Assembly (NCBI GenBank): GCA_019695305.1
Contig: JAIBAG010000003.1
Coordinates: 1 to 64,000 of the forward strand
Direction of reading: 5' to 3'
Length of the DNA stretch: 64,000 nucleotides
Source of the DNA: a bacterium
GTDB taxonomy: Bacteria > UBA10199 > JAIBAG01
The notes under the pieces were generated by a model. That model made no database searches. It saw only the letters and a list, made by a program, of their open reading frames with translations, and was not told the origin of the DNA. Both the position numbers and the translations under genes were made by a program. Shown in pieces: positions 23,286 to 37,101 of the stretch. Numbering within the stretch: the first letter of the stretch is position 1; each line of letters begins with the position of its first letter.

Positions 23286-26200
23286 TTACATGCCATCCCC
23301 GCAGGCAGCCTTGTAAAAGGTGGGAGCACCAAAGTCTTGATGCTTGGGATAATCGTAATAGTTAGTGAAACGTTGGCGATCTTGTTCAAAAATAATGTAG
23401 TCAATACAAGCTGCCGATTGTTTGCATTCATCAATATTGCTTTCATCTACAACACCTGTTTTTACTTCATCTAAAATACCTGCTTCTACATACTTTTGTT
23501 GCGCTTCTTCATCATCCCAATGCCAATCGTAACAACCGGTTCTTTCGTCAATACCCGTATTGTCTGGGTCGGCTACCAAGCAACCGTGTGTGCTAAAGGT
23601 TAAACCCACACCATCTCCACTGGAGCTTTCGCGGGCAAATACGGGGGCTAACTGATTTTTACCATGGAAAGCGGTTACACCGGCAATCATGGCACGGTTA
23701 CGATTTAAAAAGTCAATGGGTTCACCGGCCACTACCATTTTTTGGGAGGGCGTGAATATAAAGTTACCTTTACATGAAGAAAGAGCCGGCATTTCATCGC
23801 ATGGTTGGTCGTCATTATCACCGGTATTTAAATTGGAGTTAATGGGATTTTCGGTAAAATAACCTTTGGTGCCACTATCATTTTTATTAAGCATCACTTT
23901 ATCTTGGCTAAAATCATCGCGTACGTTAACGGCAATCAAGTCTTTTGAAAACTTGGTAGGGTTATCTTCGTCTAAGCCAATAGCTTTGCTGGTAAAGGTT
24001 AAGTACAGCGATAAATTAGCCAGTTTAGTATTGTTATCAAAAAAGTTATTAAGCGAGCTTGATAAAATGGAGAGCTCCAAACGGATATTACGCATGGTTA
24101 AATCCCAACGAGTATCGTCTTCTTCGTAGCTTACGTTTCCTTTGTCATCTACAGTGTATTTTCTGTGCGGTTCATATTCGCCAAAGCTGGTCCATGTGTC
24201 GGGTTTGCTCCATTTAATATTTGAATCGGTGCAACGGCTTAATCCATCGTAATCGGGACCAACAGGAGCATCTTGAGGAACACAACCTTCATCCAAGGTA
24301 AAATAGAAGTAAGCGCATTCTTCCACCATGCCGCCCACACGGGTTAAGCCCGGATCTTCATCGCTTTTCCAATCTTGGCCTTTAAACGATTCCCAACAGG
24401 TTTTAATTTTATCGGCATCGGTTAAGGTTTCGTTGGCATTGGCCTTACAACCGTTTTTATCGTAAGCCTTTTTAAAGGTAATGTAAGATCCGTTTTGGTA
24501 TGTTTTCATTTCGGCCTGATATTGCTCGGCCGTACCGCTGTCGCCCACTTTGCTGGCTACGCGGTCGTATGCCTGTTGGGCTGTTTCATTGTGAGCCAGA
24601 TAAAAAGTGGCAATTTTTCCTTCAAATTCCACTTCGCAGCTGTCAGGATTAAATTTTACAAATTCATGATAAAACACATCGTCAGAATTAGGGTCGGCAG
24701 CATCCAGTTTTTGCGAGTTATTGTTGAACATGCATATTTCACTGCCGTCAATATGAATATTTTCGCTGTCGTTATCGTATTTGCAACGGCCTTTATCGCT
24801 CATCCAGCTTCCCGGTTCGTACTCGGCCTTATAAGGATTGGTACCCAAAGGAAAACAGCTGGCGCCGCTCGCTACACTGGTAATTTGGTGATTGTAAGCG
24901 CGGAACAGTTTTACTGAGGGAATAGTTTTGGTATCGGCACGAGGATCGTATTTAATACCTTTTAAACGGGCCCAGCGGCCTGTTGAATCCAGTTCTACAG
25001 GTATCTGGCTGCGGTAGGCAGTATGATCGCGCAGAGGTTCCGATACGCCACCCAGGTTAAGGGTTAAGCGATCTACTACATACCAGGCATTACCGGTAAC
25101 AGGAGTGCCGTCACCGCCGGTACATTGTGTAGCCTTAGAGCTAACAAGCTTAAAATATAAACTGTATTGAGCCGGAGAAACTCCAAATTGGCGTTCTGTG
25201 GCTTGGTCAAAATGGTTGGTTACATCCAGTTTTCCGTAAATATCCACGTTTTCTTTCACTCCCGTTTTTACATCAACATTAATAGAGAATGTAGATTCGC
25301 TTTGAGGATCGGTTACCAGATGAGTTTGATCGAGTGTGATTGCAACATTTTTGATGGCTCTTCCGTTTTTATCGCCCATGCTCGATAAGCGGATGTCGGA
25401 AGTAAGGGGATAATTTTTGGAATAGTTTTTAATGGTAAAGCTTTTGGTTGTAACGGTGCCAATAGTGGCAATACACAAACTTTTAGGGGAGTCTACAGGG
25501 TAGGGAGGGTTGATTGCATCGTAGGGTTTTATTTTAAGGATGCCCCCTTGAGAAAGTTCAACGGAGTTTTGCGATTTTTCCTGGCCCAATAAGGTAACCA
25601 AATTGGTAGGACCATTGGTGCCGTTTTGATGAATTTTTAATTGGCCCAAATCGTAATACGGACTTACCACCTCGGGAGTGGGGGCGTAAATTAAACTGAC
25701 TGTTTTTGATTGTCCCGGTTGTAATAAAATTGGAAAGTTAACAGCCGGGTTTTGTTCTTCAAAGGTAAAATAGCCGGTGGTAATTTCATCTAACCATACC
25801 TTAAGAGGTGTTGTGCCTGTTCCTGTATTTTTTAATGTTAAATTAACATGATTAGCATCTTCAATAATCCAGTCTTTGTAAATGTCGGCTATGCCAAAAT
25901 TAATGGCTGAATAATCGGAACGTAAATCTAAAATATTGTCGGTATCAAAAGTGGATCCTTCAAATGTATAGCTGGCCGTAAGTTCCGGTTCGCGTCCGCC
26001 TGATGAACCTAAAACATTAAAGCTTTCTACGCCAAGGCTGGTGGAAACTTCCAGTGTAGTGGCATAGTTAACAGGTAAAAATAGTGAGCCCTCTGGAGGT
26101 TGTGTGGTGATAGAAGGGGCAAAGGTAATATCTAGCAGCATGTAATTACCGGCCGGAATAACCAAATTTTTAGGCAGGCGTCCGGTAGAGTTTTCTTTGA

Positions 26201-27068
26201 TGGTAAAGGCACCCACGGCATCAGGTGCGGGGCCTGTGTAAGTAACAAAAGTGGGCTCTTCAAAACTTTCTGTTACGTCAGGATTATAGTAATCAAAAAA
26301 AACTGTGTTTAATTCTTCTTCCACTTCCCATACAAAGTCTTTTTCAAAATCAACATCCACACTTTCGGATTCGGCACCCGTTTTATTGGGTTTAAGAGCA
26401 GCATCATTTAAAATAATGTCCTGTCCACCGGTGTTACAAATTTTAACACCCTTGGTTACCGTTTTACCCGAAAGCACTTTCATAAAATCGAGTGTTGAAA
26501 GAGTAGGAGCGGTTTCGCTACTACACAAATAATCGGAGGTAATAATTTTATAATCGGCAGCACCCGATACGCGGCCTTTTAAAGGAAGAATAATGTGACC
26601 GGCAATGCCCTGGGCTTCAATTTGTACATAGGCTGTTTTAGAACCCATGGTTAAGGCATCAAAAGCAACGCTGTATTCTTTAGATTCACCGCGCTTGATG
26701 GCTTCGGCCGAAAGCATGCCCACTAAAGTTTTATCGGTTTGAAAAAAGTGATACCCTCCGGCATTACCCATAATAATAAGGGAAAAAGTTACATCGCGGC
26801 CTGAGCCATTGGTAAGAGTAAACTTTTTAACAATAGATTTCTTTTGGGTGGTTACACCCATGTCAATAGATTCGGGATTAACCGTAATGCCGTTTTGTAA
26901 TGTGTTTTCGGGTTCTACAGAAAAATCGCCACCGGTGGTAAGAGTAGGGTCAATTGTCTTAGAACCACCGCCACCGCCGCAGGCTATGGTTAAGAAAAAG
27001 AGAAAAGTACATACAAATCCCAAGATTCTTTTTGCAAACAGGCCAATTGTGGTTTTATAAAGCGTCAT
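23286..27068 (-). CDS. Giant lipoprotein, 1260 aa, last gene of trio
   Basis: No named family covers the protein. Its lipoprotein signal ends FLTIACGG, with Cys near residue 30 and a glycine-rich tether. The N-terminal third has repeated Ig-like or HYDIN/ASPM-type beta-sandwich units. Marker phrases are SIDMGVTTQKKSIVKKFTL near residue 70, and NLTLKNTGTGTTPLKVW and LLQPGQSKTVSLIYAP further on. The last half has many acidic and Cys residues (for instance CSLPD-like pairs and CYDWHWDDEEA) and ends in a Cys-rich tail, CGDGM. It is presumably displayed on the cell surface. It follows the 403-aa lipoprotein gene by 6 bp and is the end of a three-gene operon. The role is unknown. Confidence 0.78.
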   Translation of the reverse strand: MTLYKTTIGLFAKRILGFVCTFLFFLTIACGGGGGSKTIDPTLTTGGDFSVEPENTLQNGITVNPESIDMGVTTQKKSIVKKFTLTNGSGRDVTFSLIIMGNAGGYHFFQTDKTLVGMLSAEAIKRGESKEYSVAFDALTMGSKTAYVQIEAQGIAGHIILPLKGRVSGAADYKIITSDYLCSSETAPTLSTLDFMKVLSGKTVTKGVKICNTGGQDIILNDAALKPNKTGAESESVDVDFEKDFVWEVEEELNTVFFDYYNPDVTESFEEPTFVTYTGPAPDAVGAFTIKENSTGRLPKNLVIPAGNYMLLDITFAPSITTQPPEGSLFLPVNYATTLEVSTSLGVESFNVLGSSGGREPELTASYTFEGSTFDTDNILDLRSDYSAINFGIADIYKDWIIEDANHVNLTLKNTGTGTTPLKVWLDEITTGYFTFEEQNPAVNFPILLQPGQSKTVSLIYAPTPEVVSPYYDLGQLKIHQNGTNGPTNLVTLLGQEKSQNSVELSQGGILKIKPYDAINPPYPVDSPKSLCIATIGTVTTKSFTIKNYSKNYPLTSDIRLSSMGDKNGRAIKNVAITLDQTHLVTDPQSESTFSINVDVKTGVKENVDIYGKLDVTNHFDQATERQFGVSPAQYSLYFKLVSSKATQCTGGDGTPVTGNAWYVVDRLTLNLGGVSEPLRDHTAYRSQIPVELDSTGRWARLKGIKYDPRADTKTIPSVKLFRAYNHQITSVASGASCFPLGTNPYKAEYEPGSWMSDKGRCKYDNDSENIHIDGSEICMFNNNSQKLDAADPNSDDVFYHEFVKFNPDSCEVEFEGKIATFYLAHNETAQQAYDRVASKVGDSGTAEQYQAEMKTYQNGSYITFKKAYDKNGCKANANETLTDADKIKTCWESFKGQDWKSDEDPGLTRVGGMVEECAYFYFTLDEGCVPQDAPVGPDYDGLSRCTDSNIKWSKPDTWTSFGEYEPHRKYTVDDKGNVSYEEDDTRWDLTMRNIRLELSILSSSLNNFFDNNTKLANLSLYLTFTSKAIGLDEDNPTKFSKDLIAVNVRDDFSQDKVMLNKNDSGTKGYFTENPINSNLNTGDNDDQPCDEMPALSSCKGNFIFTPSQKMVVAGEPIDFLNRNRAMIAGVTAFHGKNQLAPVFARESSSGDGVGLTFSTHGCLVADPDNTGIDERTGCYDWHWDDEEAQQKYVEAGILDEVKTGVVDESNIDECKQSAACIDYIIFEQDRQRFTNYYDYPKHQDFGAPTFYKAACGDGM

Positions 27069-27074
27069 ATCGTG

Positions 27075-28286
27075 TTAATTAAGTTTTTTGGTAAACGTTA
27101 CTTCGAGCTGAATATAAATATAGGGTGTATTGGCAAATAAGATACCCACAATACCATCTTTAGCTAAAAAGTTTTCGTCGTTAATGAGCTCGCCACGGGT
27201 TACAAAAGTCATGTGCCCGTCTTTTAAAGAATCACCTTCCAGATTATATTTGTTGTTACGATTTCCATCTTTAAGATTCATAACAGAAATACTATGGCTG
27301 CCTAAAATAGTACCTAATAAGGTATCTTCTTCTGTCACGGTTGATGTTAAGTCGGCTTCTAAATCGACCTGAAAAGATCCAGCATCGGTGGCTACTAAGG
27401 AACCATCTAAATCATTGGCTCGGAGCTTGGCTTTAAAGTCGTTAATTTGAGTGTCACCTTTTTCGTCAAATACACCTTCAAAATCGGTAAAGGTGGTAAT
27501 GTAGGCTGGTTCGTACAATAAAATAGAGGGATCACCGGGTACAAAAAAGTCTTCGCATTTGGTAATGCGATGGAAGGTAAAATTACCATTGGCATCATCA
27601 ACAGTTAATTTGAGATAAGTAGGAATATATTCTACCTTAGGATTGGGATCGCTGGTAGAAACCACAGCGGCTAGCGAACTAGTGCCGGGATAAATGTAAC
27701 CCACCATTTTATCGATACGCAGGTAATATTCGCCGGCGGGAGGACGTCCGGTAAAATTTTGATCTTCGTATTCAAATGAGCGGGGATCTTCGGTACATAT
27801 AATATATTCTTCGCCGCTATCTTGTGTGGGCTGAATAGTTACCGATTGACGGTAGGTTTTGTTGTTATCGGTATAGTATACATACATTTTGGTAGAATAA
27901 CCGGCTAACTCTTTAGGACAATTAAGAGGCGTGTAGCGTATATTAACAAACGCATTATCGCCGTTAGAAATAGTGGCAGAAATATTTTCAGGGTTGTTTA
28001 CAATAACATTTCCATATTGTGTGATGGTGTAAAACGAAAGGTCGCCGCATACATTGTTTTCAAACATCACATTGGTGATTGTAATTTCTTTGCCGGTGTT
28101 ATTGGTAAAGGGGATAGCGCGGTAAGCAGCACCTCCCAAAGGAGCCCTAATAATCACTACGTCGCTTTCTTCACCTAAGCTAGGAGTGCCGGTAGAACTA
28201 TTTTGAGAGCCACCGCCAAAGGTAGAGCAGGAAGCCAGTATTCCCAAGCTTAAAGCAAAAAACAGATTGTAAAATACTTTTTTCAT
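27075..28286 (-). CDS. Lipoprotein of 403 aa, middle gene of trio
   Basis: The signal peptide ends in the good lipobox LASC, with Cys at residue 20, followed by a Gly/Ser-rich linker. Residues 45-150 form a beta-rich unit, with FTNNTGKEITITNVMFENN resembling a choice-of-anchor or DUF1573-like fold, and the rest is beta-rich without recognised domains. The protein lies 1 bp after the 1650-aa gene and 6 bp before the 1260-aa gene, so the three are almost certainly made together. It may be an accessory subunit of a surface complex with its neighbours (inference). Confidence 0.78.
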   Translation of the reverse strand: MKKVFYNLFFALSLGILASCSTFGGGSQNSSTGTPSLGEESDVVIIRAPLGGAAYRAIPFTNNTGKEITITNVMFENNVCGDLSFYTITQYGNVIVNNPENISATISNGDNAFVNIRYTPLNCPKELAGYSTKMYVYYTDNNKTYRQSVTIQPTQDSGEEYIICTEDPRSFEYEDQNFTGRPPAGEYYLRIDKMVGYIYPGTSSLAAVVSTSDPNPKVEYIPTYLKLTVDDANGNFTFHRITKCEDFFVPGDPSILLYEPAYITTFTDFEGVFDEKGDTQINDFKAKLRANDLDGSLVATDAGSFQVDLEADLTSTVTEEDTLLGTILGSHSISVMNLKDGNRNNKYNLEGDSLKDGHMTFVTRGELINDENFLAKDGIVGILFANTPYIYIQLEVTFTKKLN

Positions 28287-28287
28287 T

Positions 28288-31200
28288 TTAATTCATGTGA
28301 ATCTGCAGGTCGTTTATCGTTTTAAACAAATTAGGATTAAAAGGAGCTTGTTTCATTTCCCATTGCGTGCTTTTATCATCTGCTAGCCCCGAAGGATCCA
28401 ATTCGTCGTATAGCCATTCATATAATTCCAGGTGCATTCCTGTTCCAAAGTGGATGTAACCATTTTGGTGGTCAAAATTAAGCTTAAAGTTATTAAGACT
28501 TACATCCGAAATCCCGGTTTCGCACACGCTTTCTCTTAAAGTATCTCCCAAAGTTAAGTTGTCGGCCTCTTCTTTAGCATCGTTTTCATCAGCTAACAGA
28601 TCGCATGTTTCTTCTGCAGCCGTGTTTTCATCGGAGTTATAAGGAATAAATTCCATAGGAGTAAAATCGAAACGGGGGATAAGTGGCTTGCTTTCGGGAG
28701 TAGTGCTGCCACCTTTTGCATCCACAGCATCTTGCATCATGGCAAAAATATCTATGAGCCACTGCTTAATAGCTTCGCCCAGTTCACCACCAATGGTAAT
28801 GGTAGGAGGAGGAGGAGGAGGAGGAACGCCATATTCAGGAGCAGGGCCATGGGCGTTTTCACCTTCGGTGTTACAATTACCAATATTGGTTTGTGTAATA
28901 TGGCTTGCCACGTTAAGGCCACTTAGTTTGTTGTTAACAATTTCCACGCCAAAGCTGGGTAAACTTTCTGGATCTTCGGGTTTAAAAGGTTTGGCTAATC
29001 CACCAAAGAGATTGGGTAAAATAAGAGAGTATAAGGATCGGGTGATACCCTGATCGTTAATTGTTAAACCGCGGTCGATAGCGCTAAAATAAAACACTTG
29101 TTGGTCTTGAGGTAAAATATAAATTTCAACTGTTTGACCGTTGGTGCCATTATCTATTACCCGAACCGCCAAGCGTAACAATACATCGCCACGTACGGTA
29201 ACTACTTTGTTGCCAACGGTATAGGTTTCAAGCTCATCTTCGGAAGCGGCAGGAATAGTGAGTAAGCTTTTTACAGCAATTTCCAAATTGGGAATCCCTA
29301 TTTGAAGGAGGGCGGTATTTTCATCGCCACCTTCCATGGGTAAAATGGCAATAGTAGGAGCCGATTTAACCGATATATCCAAATGTGAAATATCATTTTC
29401 AAAAAAGTCTTTAATCCCTTCAAAAACAATAGAAGGAGAAAGATCGGTATTGGCTAGCGACAAGGGCCCGCACATATCAAAACGTCCCAAAATAACTTTG
29501 TCTACACCAATGGTCCAGTTATCAAAGTTGTAGCCTTTAGGCCCTTGTAAATCTTCATCCACATCGGCCAGCTTAAGAACATCCCAAAGGCCTTTTTCAA
29601 TTAAGGTATAGAGGGCGCCGTTTAACACTTGTTCGGCGTTAAGAGAGAGAGAAAGATAAGGATTTACTTGCCCATTGTTTACTTCTTCTTGTCCATAGGG
29701 ATAGGTGGCGGAATCTAGATTGACAGGATCGCGATAAATGTAGCCGCGAGAGCGTGTGGTGTCATCCCCACGGTTATAAAAAGTTTCACTGACGTCATCG
29801 GCACCGATTTTTTCTATGCCTAACTTGGCTAAAATTCCATTGTCATTAATATTAAGATCGGCATCTTTAATGTCGGGTTTTACGGTAAAAGCAATGGAAG
29901 TACCGTCTTCTTTTTCTAAATCCTTTTTAAAACCAAAAGCAACATCACCATTTTTATCAGTACCTACACCAAATTCGAGAGGTTTGCGTTCCTTTTGAGG
30001 TACCCAGCTTGCATAGCGAAATGCTTCGGAATCTATCATTGGATTGACCATAGAATCAGGTAGGCACCCAAGTATATTACGGAAAGTCGCGTCTAAAACA
30101 TTATGGATAAGAAGGTTAAGGGTGTCATACTCGCCATTATGAGCAGAGCGTAAGAGAAGATCTCCCTGTACTGAGTTCGTATCTACTGTAAAAGGATAAT
30201 ATTCTTTTGTTTCATCATTGCACCCCAGTGGAACTGTGGCATTGGGCCAGCGCTTTTTAAAATAAGAGCTACATTCTTTGTATGGATCGAATTGAAGATC
30301 CATATATTCTGATTCAAGTCTTCTATAAGGATAGATGTACAGCATGTTTGTACAGTTACTATTGTCACATACAGCGGGCTCGCTTTCTTCTACACAAGTA
30401 TCAACGCCAGCAGAGCAGCTATCAACATATTTTTTCTTTTTTAAATCATAAAATTTACCGGTACCCTGCATGACTATATGGCCATCTTCATCCTTTTTAG
30501 CTTTTACAATACGCAGTATGTCTTTTAGGTTGATGGTCATTTTCCCCACATTAAAAAAGAGAGGAATAATAGGATCGGCAAGGCCAAAGTCTTTTAATGT
30601 AAGAGCGCCAGTAGTACCTTCATCAATAAGGTTATATGCATTAAAGTGTCCAGCAAGTGCAGGGCCTACGTCTCCATTTTCATCTACTTTTCCATTTAAA
30701 GATAGTTTTGCATCCACAAAGCCATCGTTTTTTAAATTGACATCCACATCCCAAACGCCCTGCTCAAAAGTATTACAATTCAAAACGTTTTTATCACCTT
30801 TGTTTTTCTTTTCATCGGCACATATGGCAGTTGGCCATTCTTTTAAGCCATAATCAGGATCAGTAAAGAAGCTAGGTGTTACTTTACCCCATAAAGCATA
30901 CATGTATTGATACATGTCGGGTGATACAATGGCTGTGGTTATCGGATTGCCACATTGATCGCTGGCAATATCGCTGGGGAAGTATTTTTCGGTACTTCCT
31001 TGCGCACTTTGATAATTCCAAATAGCCATGACTTGTTCTGGAGCGCTGCGATGTAATAAACGAATAATTTCATTTTTATCATTGGTATCAGACCAATCAG
31101 GGTCAAAAACACCAAAAGGCTTTTCTTTAATTTCATCTGTAGGGAAGCCCATGGCTAAATCAGCAAAATTAAGATTGTCATTTAATAATTTACGGATAAC

Positions 31201-33240
31201 ATTTTTTATTTCTTGTTTTTGAAGAGTGCCTTCGCCAAGGTAAAGCATGATAGGAGCATTTTGAATATGATCTCCACCATTATAACTGCCCATAGGGCCT
31301 GTGGATAGCTCGCCAATACCGGCGCCGGTGGAATTAAAATTGGCCTTTTTGTTTTTACCACGTTGAAAGCTAACGGCCTTGTAGGCGTAGTGGCCGCTGG
31401 CGTTGTGGGTTTCAATAAACATTAAATTGGTAAACTGGGTTAAGCCAAAGAAAGTAGTGCTAGTATTGGTGGCAGTATCGGTAATGGTTTTTTTCAAGTT
31501 GTCTAAATACATTTCATATACTGCACGCCGGATGTTGCCCGTGTTACCGTTGCTGGTGCTACCGTCTTCAGAAGCAATAATTTTTAAAGTAAATTTGTCG
31601 GTAGTATTGTTGTCGCACAAGGGAATAAACGTGCCTACATTCTGGCCGTCTTTCCAATTGGCGGCATTAAGCCACAATTTTACGGCACAACTTTTGGTTT
31701 CTACTTCTTTACCATCATCATCGGTTGTTTTGGTAACATCGTACATTACAAAGTTATCAATAGTAATGGTGCCTTTAATTTTTTCGCTATTATCTTTAGG
31801 TTCGTCTATTAACGGATAAACGTGATCTTCAAGAGGAGCTTGTATGGTAATGTTGGGGATGTCGTTATCAACCACAATACTGGTGGTTTCTACCGTGCAG
31901 CTTCCACTAAAAGTGGTGTAGTCGTTACAAAGAGTGGTTTCAATAATGCTGGTGCCTTTTTGCAGACTTGCTGTGGGCGGCATTACAATACAATAAGTAG
32001 ACGTGGGGCTATTAAATTTAGAACTGCAGTGACCATTAACACCTTCTTCGGCATTAGGATCTTCTTCTTCACTTTTTTGAAGGCCTACATACATGTCAAA
32101 AGTACTTACTTCATCGGGATCGCCGGTCCATTCTTTATCGTTGGCGTTGTAGCTCATATAAACCTGGTCGTTGTGTTTAATAACAGTTTTAATATGAACC
32201 GGTTTAGTTTTAGAAGGGCCCGAAACATCTAAGTTACTTACGTTAATACCCAATGTAAGAATGGTAGAATCAGTTTGCCCGGGAGTATCGGTAACGGCCG
32301 CATTAACAATACCGCCAGACGCATCGCGAATTTCCATTTTAGACGTAGGGCTGGTGTATCTAATTAAATGACGTACCATTTCCAAATCACCTTTTTGAGA
32401 AGGGATGGAAATAGTGATGGGATAAACTTTTTTAGGATCAAAAGGCAGCTTAAATTCGCCTTCAAAGCTGTTGTTTCCTGCCGGTAAAGTAACAGTGCTC
32501 ATGCCGCCTTTTACCGTTACGTCGGTACCGGTAATAACAGACGATAAATTAGTATTGACTGTGCCTTTTACAGCAATGGTAAAAGTACCGGCTGCAGCAT
32601 CATAGGTACTTACGCCGTCTTGTTCCCAAACAAGCATGCCTTCGGTGGGGCTATCTAAATCAAAAACATAATCGGCGGTACTGCCTTTAACGGGAATAAC
32701 TGTGGCATAGGCCATGGAGCCGCTATCAATTACCACATTTACGCGTGCGCTATGATCGCCAATAACAGTGCGTTTGTAGCAAAGATCAATGCCTTCCGAA
32801 ACACCGGCTTGGCGGCCCGAAAGTTCATTGCCGGCAGCATCAAAAAAACCAAATTGCTGATCATCATCGGAAGTTCCATCAGGATATACAATTTCGGCGT
32901 TAAAACCCACGCAACCGTTTACTTGGATGTGCTCACATTCTTTATCTTCAAGTTGTCTTAAGCCAAAATCGATAGTGTTAGGTGAAATGGATAAGGTTTC
33001 AAAGGTTTCACAATCAGGTTCTTTGCCCGGATTAACAGGGGTAGTGCCATCGGTGGGGTCTAAGTCGGCGCCGGGTTGTAAACCGATGTCTTCGTTGCCA
33101 CCGCTAGTGGCTAGCTCAACACGGCTATTAGTTTCTACCCCGCAGGCTACAGAAAAAAGCGTGATAAAACAAAAGGCTAACGCCAGGAAAGTATTGGAAA
33201 ATAAGGAAGAGAGCGGGTTGGAAGGTCTTTTATGGGTCAT
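28288..33240 (-). CDS. Giant lipoprotein, 1650 aa, first gene of trio
   Basis: This is among the largest proteins of the window. The signal peptide ends FSVACG, with Cys near residue 33. Early residues (about 85-190) resemble an Ig-like or HYDIN-type unit, with ISPNTIDFGLRQL, as in the 1260-aa partner. Further beta-rich domains follow, then a long mixed region. A run of seven prolines lies near residue 1475, just before a predicted helix. The C-terminal part is acidic. No enzyme motif was found. The start ATG at 33238-33240 is only a few bases after the expected transcription start of the sigma-28-type promoter, so the message would be nearly leaderless. It is a likely surface or adhesin-like lipoprotein of unknown role. 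Confidence 0.8.
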   Translation of the reverse strand: MTHKRPSNPLSSLFSNTFLALAFCFITLFSVACGVETNSRVELATSGGNEDIGLQPGADLDPTDGTTPVNPGKEPDCETFETLSISPNTIDFGLRQLEDKECEHIQVNGCVGFNAEIVYPDGTSDDDQQFGFFDAAGNELSGRQAGVSEGIDLCYKRTVIGDHSARVNVVIDSGSMAYATVIPVKGSTADYVFDLDSPTEGMLVWEQDGVSTYDAAAGTFTIAVKGTVNTNLSSVITGTDVTVKGGMSTVTLPAGNNSFEGEFKLPFDPKKVYPITISIPSQKGDLEMVRHLIRYTSPTSKMEIRDASGGIVNAAVTDTPGQTDSTILTLGINVSNLDVSGPSKTKPVHIKTVIKHNDQVYMSYNANDKEWTGDPDEVSTFDMYVGLQKSEEEDPNAEEGVNGHCSSKFNSPTSTYCIVMPPTASLQKGTSIIETTLCNDYTTFSGSCTVETTSIVVDNDIPNITIQAPLEDHVYPLIDEPKDNSEKIKGTITIDNFVMYDVTKTTDDDGKEVETKSCAVKLWLNAANWKDGQNVGTFIPLCDNNTTDKFTLKIIASEDGSTSNGNTGNIRRAVYEMYLDNLKKTITDTATNTSTTFFGLTQFTNLMFIETHNASGHYAYKAVSFQRGKNKKANFNSTGAGIGELSTGPMGSYNGGDHIQNAPIMLYLGEGTLQKQEIKNVIRKLLNDNLNFADLAMGFPTDEIKEKPFGVFDPDWSDTNDKNEIIRLLHRSAPEQVMAIWNYQSAQGSTEKYFPSDIASDQCGNPITTAIVSPDMYQYMYALWGKVTPSFFTDPDYGLKEWPTAICADEKKNKGDKNVLNCNTFEQGVWDVDVNLKNDGFVDAKLSLNGKVDENGDVGPALAGHFNAYNLIDEGTTGALTLKDFGLADPIIPLFFNVGKMTINLKDILRIVKAKKDEDGHIVMQGTGKFYDLKKKKYVDSCSAGVDTCVEESEPAVCDNSNCTNMLYIYPYRRLESEYMDLQFDPYKECSSYFKKRWPNATVPLGCNDETKEYYPFTVDTNSVQGDLLLRSAHNGEYDTLNLLIHNVLDATFRNILGCLPDSMVNPMIDSEAFRYASWVPQKERKPLEFGVGTDKNGDVAFGFKKDLEKEDGTSIAFTVKPDIKDADLNINDNGILAKLGIEKIGADDVSETFYNRGDDTTRSRGYIYRDPVNLDSATYPYGQEEVNNGQVNPYLSLSLNAEQVLNGALYTLIEKGLWDVLKLADVDEDLQGPKGYNFDNWTIGVDKVILGRFDMCGPLSLANTDLSPSIVFEGIKDFFENDISHLDISVKSAPTIAILPMEGGDENTALLQIGIPNLEIAVKSLLTIPAASEDELETYTVGNKVVTVRGDVLLRLAVRVIDNGTNGQTVEIYILPQDQQVFYFSAIDRGLTINDQGITRSLYSLILPNLFGGLAKPFKPEDPESLPSFGVEIVNNKLSGLNVASHITQTNIGNCNTEGENAHGPAPEYGVPPPPPPPTITIGGELGEAIKQWLIDIFAMMQDAVDAKGGSTTPESKPLIPRFDFTPMEFIPYNSDENTAAEETCDLLADENDAKEEADNLTLGDTLRESVCETGISDVSLNNFKLNFDHQNGYIHFGTGMHLELYEWLYDELDPSGLADDKSTQWEMKQAPFNPNLFKTINDLQIHMN

Positions 33241-33251
33241 ACCTATAATAG

Positions 33252-33278
33252 TTATCGGCTAATTGTCAGAAATGTTGC
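33252..33278 (-). promoter_or_regulatory. Sigma-28-type promoter of the lipoprotein trio
   Basis: On the minus strand the sequence reads GCAACATT (33271-33278), 11 nt, GCCGATAA (33252-33259). The -10 is a perfect match to the FliA consensus and the spacing is the consensus 11 nt. The -35 fits only partly. The same layout, with ACGCAAC and GCCGATAAC at identical distance, precedes the gene at 33330-36296. Expected initiation lies about 4 nt before the ATG. Confidence 0.62.
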
Positions 33279-33301
33279 GTAAAAAGAAGAAAAAAAATGA
33301 G

Positions 33302-33323: not shown

Positions 33324-33333
33324 TATGCGTTAT
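33317..33333. other. Perfect palindrome overlapping the 988-aa gene stop
   Basis: ATAACGC (33317-33323) and GCGTTAT (33327-33333) form a 7-bp inverted repeat with a 3-nt centre. It overlaps the stop codon of the minus-strand gene and the upstream promoter block. No T-tract follows on the minus strand, so it looks more like a protein-binding site than a terminator. Confidence 0.4.
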
Positions 33334-36296
33334 TTATTTTTTCCCCAACGAAATGTGAGTTGGCTTGAGGCGCCAAAATTGTTGCCGTTTAAAGGATCCG
33401 CTTGAAGAACTGGGTTAACATCTAAGCCCCAGCTTATTTCCTTAGTGCCTAAGCGAAAATTGCCTCCAAACACCGAGCCCGGCGATACATCGGGATTAAA
33501 CACCACATGATCTCCAAAAATCGGGATATTTTTAGGTAAAATAGTGGGAAGAGCCCATCCTAAACCATAAGCTAATGTCTCAGCTGCTTCATTAACATAG
33601 ATACTGGTTGCATCATCGGGATTATCGTGAGCAGCTTTACCCGCTGCTATCCACCCTTCGGCTAGTTCTGCTAACTTAAGGCCATAAATAATGGCTACCT
33701 GTGCTTTATCCCAAGGAGTAGAAGCGTTGCCTTTAGCAAGTACTTTATCAAACAACATTCTATCCATAACACCAGTTTGTAATTGCTGCAGATCGTTTGC
33801 AGCGGCATCAATAATAAGAGGTATATAAACAACCGAAGATCCCTCTTTAGCGCTAATAAGCCCAGCTTGTGTAAGTGTGCGGGCATATTCGCTTAAGATT
33901 CCGGTTTGTTTTGCCAAACGATAATGAATGAAAGGATCAGTTCTACCCCCTTTGTCCCAATCAACAGCAATAATGGCAAAAGCAACACCGCTTAATCGGG
34001 CACCGGCACCTTCTAGAATAGTATCTACACGGGTTTGGCGTTCTATAGTTTCGGTAGTGGAGTGAGCTATGGCTTCATCATAAGCCCGGGCTTTATCACT
34101 AACATTAATAGCCCAGCCTTTTCCTGGTATAAACGACATAATAACAGGAGCGCCAGCTGCTGTTAAAGCACCAATAGTAATACCTATTCCTGGGCCAAAT
34201 TCACGAATAAGATCTGTTGTTAAATTCTGGCTGCCTGTAGACATTGCTTCCTCTAATGCAGCTATTTGAGCTCTTACGGGAAACTCCAAATCAAAAACGA
34301 CAAAGGCTCCGTTAGAAGAAACGTTACCGGCATTTTGTTCTTCCATCCATGCCTTGGCTTCGTCCATGTAGATATCACATCTATCTTTTGGATGTGCGCT
34401 GTTAGCACAAATGTCAATTTGTTCCTTGGTTGGATCTAGCCCCATAGCAACTTCGTAATCGTCAAGAGTAAAAGCTGCTTGATACCCATTCATGTGACCC
34501 TTTGCGGCATCAAATACAGCACGTTGTTCTATAAGGCCTTCTAGCAAACTTTCATCGGCAACAAACATGGATGCATAATTAAGCGCGCGAACTCCTTTGC
34601 CAATGAGAGAGGGTTCAAATTGGCCGGCAAAGCGTGCATATTCGCGACGATTATGGCGAATGCCTGATGTATGCAGCGCATCGCTCAGTAGCGGAAAAAT
34701 AAGTTCGATGTTACCTTCGTCGAGTAGTTCATTTAAATTGATATGTGTAGCACCCAGCCATTGAAGACGAGGTAGATTACGTATGATACCAGTTATACCA
34801 TTGGCTACATCCAAATGCCGTAACATGGGATCGGGAACCGCATTAATGTCGGTAAAGGGAGATACAATCATGCGAGGTCTAAAAAGTTCACCTGGTGAAG
34901 TAAGCACATCGGGAAGTCCGGCAAAGCTTGTAAGGGCGCCCATGGTATCAATAAGCTCGTGCCCTGGAATTGCGAGTTTTAGTTTTGGAGTAAGACCCAC
35001 TCTAAATTCACGAAATTGTGCGGCCAAAAGTTTTTGACGGGCATATTCGGTTTGGTAAAAACGTTGTAAATCAACTTGCCCAATAGAGTCTAAATGACTG
35101 GCTACCAATGCCACTTGTGCATCTAACAAGGCTTTATCGCTATCGGCATGGTTAACTGTACGGGTAGGGTTAAGTAAAAATGCCCGGATAAGATAATAAA
35201 CATTACCTTGCGCCATACCTAAGGGTGTGTAGGCTTGTATTGCAGCATCGCGGTCGTGAGTAATTTGCGCCTGATCTACAATATAGCCAATGGCAATGGC
35301 TTCTTGTGGATTGCTTTGTTTTAAAGCATCAATGCCGGCTTGATTAGTTACAGTGCCTTTAGCATCAATAAAACCTTCTAGCTTAGTTTTTGTATCACTA
35401 GAAATACCGGTAAATTGTTGTAAATATTGTCCAGAAACTGCCGATGAAGCATAAGCAAAAGCATATCTAACAGCATCAGCCCCACTTAACTTATTGTCTA
35501 AAGCAATTTGATATCCATTAAAGGCCGCATCTATTACTAAAGAATAAGGTTTGCCCGCTGTGTAAACACTTTTATCGGTTCCAGCTATAAGCGCGGCTTC
35601 CAAATCTGATGCTTCTTCGCTTGTAAGTAAACGAGGGAGGTTAGTGCTGGTGGGTACAGTTGTTGTTCGGGGGCGTGAAGCTGGAATACCGTAGTCATTT
35701 ATTCTATCAGTAATAATTCTCTTTTTCACAGGGCCAAACTCGGCTAATTCACCCGTAGTGTCTACTTCGCCAGCAATAAATACTTCTTCACTTAATATAT
35801 TTTGTACATATGTAATAAATTCTTTAACATCTTGTTTTACTGTAGGGTCGTTTTTCCATCCTTCAAGCTTGGTGATAATCCCAGCTCCGTTCATTTCATT
35901 AATAATATAGATAATGGAACTGCGAGCCTCATCAATAGTTAATGTTGTTTGGGTACTGGTAGCTGATTTTGGCTCTAGTGGTTTGTCAAGATGGCAAGCC
36001 GCAACACGGCCCTCTAAAACATCTATAATGGCGGTAATGTTATTATCGTTAGAAAAATAAGATCTTTCTTCTTTTGTATCAATTTTACCTTTAAGACCAG
36101 CGCTAATAAAAGTATCTCTAATATAACGCGCAGCGGTGCCTACATCGCCGCTTTGGCTAACCCATTTGTCGAGTTCTTTAAATGGATTTTTACCCTTAAG
36201 ATTTTTGTCTCCACCCTTATAATTATCAACGCTACCCAGCCACGTAAAGTAATTACGAATAGCTTCAAGTGGTGAATTTGATACGGGTGTTGGCAT
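33330..36296 (-). CDS. Large orphan protein, 988 aa
   Basis: No family is recognised. The 988-residue protein has no signal peptide; the N-terminus is PTPVSNSPLEAIRNYFTWLG. Most of the protein (to about 900) is predicted helical from its composition and contains scattered hydrophobic segments, for instance GIGITIGALTAAGAPVIMSF near residue 700. The last 60 residues look beta-rich, with FGGNFRLGTKEISWGLDV and a closing QLTFRWG. GAGGAACACATG gives a good start. The upstream region closely resembles that of the lipoprotein trio, so the two units are probably switched on together. It could be exported by a non-Sec route, or act inside the cell as partner of the trio; nothing in the sequence decides this. 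Confidence 0.75.
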   Translation of the reverse strand: MPTPVSNSPLEAIRNYFTWLGSVDNYKGGDKNLKGKNPFKELDKWVSQSGDVGTAARYIRDTFISAGLKGKIDTKEERSYFSNDNNITAIIDVLEGRVAACHLDKPLEPKSATSTQTTLTIDEARSSIIYIINEMNGAGIITKLEGWKNDPTVKQDVKEFITYVQNILSEEVFIAGEVDTTGELAEFGPVKKRIITDRINDYGIPASRPRTTTVPTSTNLPRLLTSEEASDLEAALIAGTDKSVYTAGKPYSLVIDAAFNGYQIALDNKLSGADAVRYAFAYASSAVSGQYLQQFTGISSDTKTKLEGFIDAKGTVTNQAGIDALKQSNPQEAIAIGYIVDQAQITHDRDAAIQAYTPLGMAQGNVYYLIRAFLLNPTRTVNHADSDKALLDAQVALVASHLDSIGQVDLQRFYQTEYARQKLLAAQFREFRVGLTPKLKLAIPGHELIDTMGALTSFAGLPDVLTSPGELFRPRMIVSPFTDINAVPDPMLRHLDVANGITGIIRNLPRLQWLGATHINLNELLDEGNIELIFPLLSDALHTSGIRHNRREYARFAGQFEPSLIGKGVRALNYASMFVADESLLEGLIEQRAVFDAAKGHMNGYQAAFTLDDYEVAMGLDPTKEQIDICANSAHPKDRCDIYMDEAKAWMEEQNAGNVSSNGAFVVFDLEFPVRAQIAALEEAMSTGSQNLTTDLIREFGPGIGITIGALTAAGAPVIMSFIPGKGWAINVSDKARAYDEAIAHSTTETIERQTRVDTILEGAGARLSGVAFAIIAVDWDKGGRTDPFIHYRLAKQTGILSEYARTLTQAGLISAKEGSSVVYIPLIIDAAANDLQQLQTGVMDRMLFDKVLAKGNASTPWDKAQVAIIYGLKLAELAEGWIAAGKAAHDNPDDATSIYVNEAAETLAYGLGWALPTILPKNIPIFGDHVVFNPDVSPGSVFGGNFRLGTKEISWGLDVNPVLQADPLNGNNFGASSQLTFRWGKNK

Positions 36297-36341
36297 GTGT
36301 TCCTCTATCTATAAAAATGGATTTATCCTACCTCAGTAAAG

Positions 36342-36368
36342 TTATCGGCATTTATCTGTAAAAGTTGC
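36342..36368 (-). promoter_or_regulatory. Sigma-28-type promoter of the 988-aa gene
   Basis: On the minus strand GCAACTTT (36361-36368), then 11 nt, then GCCGATAA (36342-36349). The -10 is perfect and the -35 shares CAAC-T-T with the trio promoter at 33252. A leader of about 40 nt with GAGGAAC precedes the ATG. Confidence 0.62.
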
Positions 36369-36390
36369 GTAGAAAAATAAGTTTTTTCAG

Positions 36391-36508: not shown

Positions 36509-36859
36509 TTATTCCCAATCAAAAATATCTTTTAAAGCCTCTATCAGTTCATTTTGTTTATTTTTAGGAAGCAGACCTACCTTTTTTGTGATGCGGGTAA
36601 TATCCCATGAAAGAATCTGATCTACTAAAATTACGGAATCTTTGGATAAGCCTGAATCGCTTTGTGAAAGAAAGATGCGCAACGGATAAGCATCGCGTTG
36701 AGAGGTTTGGCTTGAAAGAGGAAGAACAATAACCGATGGATGTTCGGTTTTGTTAAGCGTGTTACCTTGAATAGCTACAACAGGTCTTATTTTTCCGGGT
36801 TTAGTTCCAATGCGTGGGTTAAGATTGGCAATATAAATGCCGTATTGATCGATTACCAT
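36509..36859 (-). CDS. PemK/MazF-family toxin
   Basis: The 116-residue protein is a type II toxin of the MazF/PemK fold, normally an mRNA-cutting endoribonuclease. Family features are the N-terminal YGIYIANLNP, the RNA-contact loop KIRPVVAIQGN, VIVLPLSSQ, and the catalytic-region ILVDQILSWD. The sequence specificity cannot be read from the sequence. The start overlaps the end of the antitoxin gene by 7 bp, so the two are translated in step. The pair is closely flanked by unrelated genes, with no other mobile signature. Confidence 0.91.
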   Translation of the reverse strand: MVIDQYGIYIANLNPRIGTKPGKIRPVVAIQGNTLNKTEHPSVIVLPLSSQTSQRDAYPLRIFLSQSDSGLSKDSVILVDQILSWDITRITKKVGLLPKNKQNELIEALKDIFDWE

Positions 36860-37101
36860 GTTTCTTTACGGAGAGAAGCAGTTGTAAATCGGGACATTTC
36901 CTTGTTTATTTTCATGGATTCTTTGCGTACCGCCAAGGAGGCCTTTTGCATTTGAAGGGCTTTTAATTCTTTTTTGCGCAATTTATAGAGGGCTTGTACG
37001 CCAGCCAAAACTACTTCTTTTTTACTGGAAAACCCAAAGTCTTTTTTTGCCTTTGCAATAAATTTGTCTTCATTGCCGTTAATTTGTATCGTATTTAACA
37101 T
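36853..37101 (-). CDS. Antitoxin of the PemK/MazF pair
   Basis: This 82-residue protein lies directly upstream of the toxin gene and overlaps it by 7 bp. Its N-terminal part (about residues 1-45), with a strand IQING and helices ending KKEVVLAGVQALYKL, resembles a ribbon-helix-helix type DNA-binding dimer. The basic, Lys- and Met-rich C-terminal part would wrap around the toxin. Such antitoxins usually repress their own promoter. A strong sigma-70 promoter with two direct repeats lies directly upstream. The antitoxin family call is from position and general features. Confidence 0.8.
   Translation of the reverse strand: MLNTIQINGNEDKFIAKAKKDFGFSSKKEVVLAGVQALYKLRKKELKALQMQKASLAVRKESMKINKEMSRFTTASLRKETW

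Follow-up and report, generated by a model that had tools for sequence, protein, structure and literature searches.

The 64,000-nucleotide stretch analyzed here (positions 1 to 64,000 of contig JAIBAG010000003.1, assembly GCA_019695305.1, from a bacterium of the lineage UBA10199; hereafter the window) carries on its minus strand two promoter-like sites of the sigma28 type. One of them (P1) stands ahead of a trio of lipoprotein genes and the other (P2) ahead of a gene for a 988-aa protein. The question raised by this locus is which sigma factor reads the two sites and which genes it commands. An earlier note on this DNA proposed the flagellar sigma factor FliA and a switch linked to motility. 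We consider it likely that P1 and P2 are instead two of dozens of promoters in a class-wide sigma28-family regulon of secretion and surface genes, and that they are read by a second sigma28-family factor (paralog) encoded within the type III secretion system (T3SS) operon of the class, which we name T3sig.

Twin promoters in the window

The minus strand of the window holds two exact copies of ACGCAAC-N14-GCCGATAAC (33251-33280 and 36341-36370) and no third copy, with the positions and spacing exactly as the earlier note had given them. Sixteen fixed bases found twice within 64 kb is far above chance expectation. The sigma28 −10 element GCCGATAA was present at both promoters, and the description of a perfect FliA −10 was literally correct. 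The claim of a canonical −35 did not hold, as agreement with TAAAGTTT was 4/8 for P1 and 5/8 for P2; the 11-nt spacing did agree. A better fit to both sites was GCAAC[A/T]TT-N12-CCGATAA, with GCAAC[A/T]TT as the −35, within the wider motif GCAACTTT-N12-CCGATAA, and GCAACTTT was the −35 consensus of this genome. The gene behind P2 had been called an unrelated orphan, but it is the immediate upstream neighbor of the trio and shares its strand. All four genes share a single direction, and P1 is located in the 89-bp gap separating the 988-aa gene from the first lipoprotein gene.

The promoter across the genome and the class

We counted the core of the motif, AACTTTT-N10-GCCGATAA, throughout this genome together with reversed controls. 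The counts were 41 sites versus 0 controls with at most one mismatch and 107 sites versus 19 controls with at most two. Stretches fetched from this genome gave the consensus GCAACTTTT-N11-nCCGATAA from 53 sites (at most one mismatch); these stretches were chosen by pattern, and the two preceding counts are the unbiased ones. In 40 genomes of the class, the core pattern (at most one mismatch) occurred at 1,040 sites versus 14 in the reversed controls, and every genome held at least one site (40/40). As sampled here, the phylum seems to consist of this class alone. The related pattern GCAACTTT-N12-CCGATAA gave 3 one-mismatch matches in total in 12 genomes outside the class. Sites with an intact GCAAC were mostly upstream of genes, and many intragenic matches lacked the leading GC. 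The earlier proposal that both window units have sigma28-type promoters and belong to one regulon is supported; their link is not exclusive, because dozens of genes share the promoter.

A sigma28-family factor within the type III secretion operon

This genome encodes FliA, which scored over the family cut-off and is located after flhF and flhG. The absence of a FliA-like sigma factor, named beforehand as a refutation of the FliA reading, therefore does not apply. Canonical FliA was over the cut-off in 4 of the 40 class genomes, while the promoter was present in all 40. T3sig was intact in 35/40 genomes, with a split copy in G006 and a contig-edge fragment in G036, and was absent from the assemblies of G000 (this genome), G023, and G024. 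It was the sole sigma28-family factor found class-wide. A sigma28-family gene lay inside the T3SS operon in 31 of the 34 genomes in the operon check, and the literature searched contained nothing matching this arrangement. In the tree, 32/32 T3sig sequences formed one clan (100/100) that was separate from every FliA sequence, whether from this class or from other phyla.

SctV, the T3SS export gate, was over the cut-off in 35/40 genomes, including this genome (contig C18). The gene order of the T3SS operon was FHA-SctD, needle-like, SctJ, T3sig, SctI-like, FliG-like, SctL, SctN, SctO, SctP, FliM-like, FliN-like, SctR, SctS, and SctT, where the placement of T3sig between SctJ and SctI/SctL/SctN comes from the operons read at length. 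A secretin was unrecognized in the T3SS clusters looked at, in which no systematic search was made.

Small open reading frames (ORFs) of ~95-128 aa with variable N-termini were seen just upstream of T3sig (L209, L192, L197, L181, L207, and L210), a candidate place for an anti-sigma factor. Pfam recognized no FlgM in four scanned small ORFs beside T3sig. A further SctV-like gene (678-728 bits) was present in the order-mates G001, G002, G003, G005, and G006 and may belong to a second T3SS. The gene directly downstream of SctV in this genome (L220:2517-4838) encodes a protein of 773 aa that begins with MGN and contains a thioredoxin domain.

Genes behind the promoters

Behind the sites of this genome (at most one mismatch) were 50 genes, encoding 38 proteins without a signal peptide, 6 lipoproteins, and 6 other exported proteins; these calls come from a simple hydropathy rule, which separates lipoproteins from other exported proteins only roughly (it placed the window's own lipoprotein among the others). 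A comparable result came from three relatives that lack canonical FliA, with no signal peptide for 15/18 genes behind the promoter. Compared with the rest of the genome, the N-termini of the signal-less proteins were poor in K and R (p = 3e-6) and richer in S, T, P, N, and G (p = 0.009), a resemblance to T3SS substrates that applies to the group as a whole and not protein by protein. Pfam returned no match at E ≤ 0.01 for 15 of 20 regulon proteins scanned, and the matches included MopE, DUF4215, and Chlamydia PMP repeats. The window's two units represent one of each kind, a signal-less protein (P2) and lipoproteins (P1). The earlier note had asked whether a genome scan would return surface or motility genes. 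A minority were lipoproteins or exported proteins, but most encoded signal-less, probable secreted proteins and not motility functions.

In our reading, T3sig would recognize GCAACTTT-N12-CCGATAA and would turn on large signal-less proteins, which are probable secretion substrates, as well as, in smaller number, lipoproteins and surface proteins that are exported. Of the window's genes, the one for the 988-aa protein, a candidate substrate, would then be under P2, and those for the three large lipoproteins would form an operon under P1. By analogy with the FliA-FlgM checkpoint, we would guess that the regulon's expression may be tied to full assembly of the secretion machine.

The hexamer TGGGCA was found in the 110 nt downstream of 13/53 promoters of this genome and upstream of 0/53, with a frequency of 3% in random stretches (loci L018, L043, L045, L048, L050, L134, L136, L137, L142, and L169). 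It was sometimes in an apparent small hairpin loop, or in a start codon context ATGGGC giving MG[ND] N-termini. Behind the promoters of relatives it was found in 0/27 cases. TGGGCA is possibly an RNA-level element.

Flagellin promoters and sigma factor residues

We compared the promoters with those of flagellin genes as a control for the alternative that the flagellar FliA of this genome reads P1 and P2, as the FliA of Bdellovibrio is the global regulator of its free-swimming attack phase. In favor of this alternative are the FliA gene after flhF and flhG, the CCGATA signal of the Bdellovibrio attack phase (PMC3627812), the missing T3sig in this assembly, and one promoter site in the chemotaxis region of contig C7. 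The signal upstream of flagellin in the flagellated genomes G000, G010, and G028 was [AC]AAGTTT-N12/13-CCGTC. The flagellin gene of this genome carried CAAGTTT-N12-CCGTC and its second flagellin- or flgL-like gene carried CAAGTTT-N12-CCGTA. Elsewhere in the 1.97 Mb of this genome the pattern was scarce, at roughly 4 distinct sites, and a scan of ten genomes for AAGTTT-N12-CCGTC gave too few sites for defining a FliA regulon; the FliA promoter therefore rests on four flagellin-type genes (3 flagellins and 1 flagellin- or flgL-like gene).

Region 2.4 of FliA has lost its tryptophan in G000, G010, and G028 (DILPRS, DALPRS, and DVLPRS), and the standard helix ESRVSQIH is kept. T3sig retained W[ILMV]PR in region 2.4, the residues typical for CCGATAA, and its −35-reading helix is altered (SKSWTSRLHARAL). 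With a flagellin promoter that differs from the P1/P2 type, FliA here seems to pair a standard −35 with an altered −10, and T3sig to do the opposite. In G005, CCGATTA stands before flagellin and FliA keeps the tryptophan, which agrees with the residue rule but not with the CCGTC signature; the agreement between sigma residues and promoters is a correlation in a small sample.

The reader of P1 and P2 is probably not FliA, and we regard the FliA alternative as unlikely. The genome's own flagellin gene bears a different signal, GCAAC/CCGATAA promoters also occur in FliA-less relatives, and a FliA with changed region 2.4 and standard −35 helix is the opposite of what the promoter requires. The motility switch proposed in the earlier note is likewise not supported, as most class members have the promoters without canonical FliA and the flagellins carry another promoter, and T3sig is the better candidate.

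The operon gap in this assembly and other alternatives

Several observations weigh against T3sig as the reader. At 95.6% completeness, this assembly contains SctV, whereas SctN and T3sig are missing, and no other piece of the operon turned up in those of its contig ends and small contigs that were read. G023 and G024 are also without T3sig yet keep the promoters, together with SctV and SctD, and the part from SctJ to SctT was not found beside their SctD. The relatives G031 and G038 hold very few sites, the T3SS operon itself seldom bears the promoter, and the secretion signal is purely statistical, with signal peptides from a simple hydropathy rule. The search for homologs of the four proteins covered the fetched loci and, for the 988-aa protein, one capped scan of named genomes, which gave no relative. 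The order-mates carry SctD to SctT in one block, and therefore a single missing contig (~20 kb) would account for the gap; a missing contig and a real loss are both possible. We infer the presence of T3sig in this organism from its relatives.

The promoters retained in G000, G023, and G024 despite assemblies without the T3sig gene would also fit another class-wide factor, either an unrecognized sigma factor or a modified housekeeping holoenzyme, with T3sig merely co-occurring. CCGATAA is, however, a sigma28-family −10 and T3sig the sole sigma28-family factor across the class, and we think this explanation improbable. We give almost no credence to the sites being functionless chance or repeat matches, since this genome gave 41 sites and no reversed-control match, and since sites with an intact GCAAC are mostly upstream of genes, with intragenic matches usually lacking the leading GC.

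Relation to known systems

The flagellar FliA-FlgM late-gene switch ties sigma28 to a type III export machine and its late exported products. The T3sig regulon resembles it in linking a sigma28-family factor to a type III export machine, and differs in that the machine is a non-flagellar T3SS and that Pfam did not recognize FlgM in the four small ORFs near T3sig. In Pseudomonas syringae, HrpL, a sigma factor of the extracytoplasmic function type, switches on the T3SS regulon. For Chlamydia, sigma54 is reported for the T3SS regulon (PMC7482065). As with HrpL and the sigma54 of Chlamydia, an alternative sigma factor is proposed here to activate T3SS effectors; unlike those two, the factor would belong to the sigma28 family, be encoded in the operon itself, and use a sigma28-like promoter.

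Early-branching Myxococcales have a non-flagellar T3SS for which FliG was reported absent (Abby and Rocha 2012, PMC3459982). The system described here is likewise a non-flagellar T3SS with flagellum-like features, with no secretin recognized in the clusters viewed unsystematically, but its operon encodes a dedicated sigma factor along with FliG-like, FliM-like, and FliN-like proteins. In Bdellovibrio bacteriovorus, a FliA-type sigma28 signal was found at 92/140 mapped attack-phase promoters (PMC3627812, PMC5430801). Both regulons are large and of the sigma28 type, with surface proteins, many uncharacterized genes, and a CCGATA −10. Unlike in Bdellovibrio, where the −35 is TTAAG-N16 and the sigma factor is FliA, the −35 here is GCAACTTT, the sigma factor is likely that of the T3SS operon, and most carriers lack canonical FliA. 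A placement of this bacterium in Bdellovibrionota had no support, and a scan with FliA matched only distant phyla.

The broader claim, for which we see a slight balance of probability, is that the injectisome operon of an uncultured class encodes its own sigma28, a relative of the flagellar one, whose promoter code departs from the FliA code in the −35 as well as the −10, that this factor commands a large repertoire of uncharacterized effectors and surface lipoproteins, and that one DNA pattern lists the candidate effectors of the class. We know of no cultured model for this class. If the claim is true, a T3SS holds flagellar sigma28 logic in its own operon, which bears on the evolution of injectisomes from flagella, and a simple sequence rule gives candidate effectors across the class. 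A cell with two sigma28 factors side by side, each with its own type of promoter, would also allow sigma specificity to be tested cleanly. As a caution, a perfect FliA −10 need not signal motility.

Features of the locus and neighboring genes

The coordinates of the locus are given in Table 1.

Table 1. Predicted promoters, upstream boxes, and genes at the twin-promoter locus (window coordinates).
Feature	Position	Strand	Description
Promoter P1 (predicted)	33252..33278	-	GCAACATT-N12-CCGATAA; start codon of 1650-aa lipoprotein 11 nt downstream
Promoter P2 (predicted)	36342..36368	-	GCAACTTT-N12-CCGATAA; zero mismatches to consensus; start codon of 988-aa protein 45 nt downstream
Upstream box TAACTAGTTAAAA	33305..33317	-	39 nt before GCAAC of P1
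Upstream box TAACTATTTAAAA	36394..36406	-	38 nt before GCAAC of P2
988-aa protein	33330..36296	-	candidate T3SS substrate; no signal peptide found
1650-aa predicted lipoprotein	28288..33240	-	FSVAC lipobox; gene 1 of trio; no family match
403-aa predicted lipoprotein	27075..28286	-	ILASC lipobox; gene 2 of trio; 1-nt gap
1260-aa predicted lipoprotein	23286..27068	-	TIAC lipobox; Cep192/HYDIN-like Ig domain; gene 3 of trio; 6-nt gap

With just 11 nt ahead of the ATG, the P1 mRNA should be nearly leaderless. For the 988-aa protein, Pfam and PADLOC gave no match and PDB no significant match, and its AlphaFold model (predicted local distance difference test score, pLDDT, 35) was unusable. An Rfam search of the window gave no RNA family. 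Upstream of P2, window positions 36509-37101 contain a gene for a toxin of the PemK/MazF type (36509-36859), preceded by the ORF of a likely antitoxin.

A TAACTA-n-TTAAAA box 38-39 nt 5' of GCAAC was present in 3/54 such promoters, namely the twins and C6:45023, with a background of 7 in 1.97 Mb. The box common to P1 and P2 could mean that they share a regulator or that the upstream region was duplicated. The third site (G000:C6:45023, L016:1500-1640) has a perfect promoter and the same upstream box as the twins. No ORF is driven from it, but a strong hairpin follows (-32.9 kcal/mol, z -5.3), and its transcript is a candidate small RNA.
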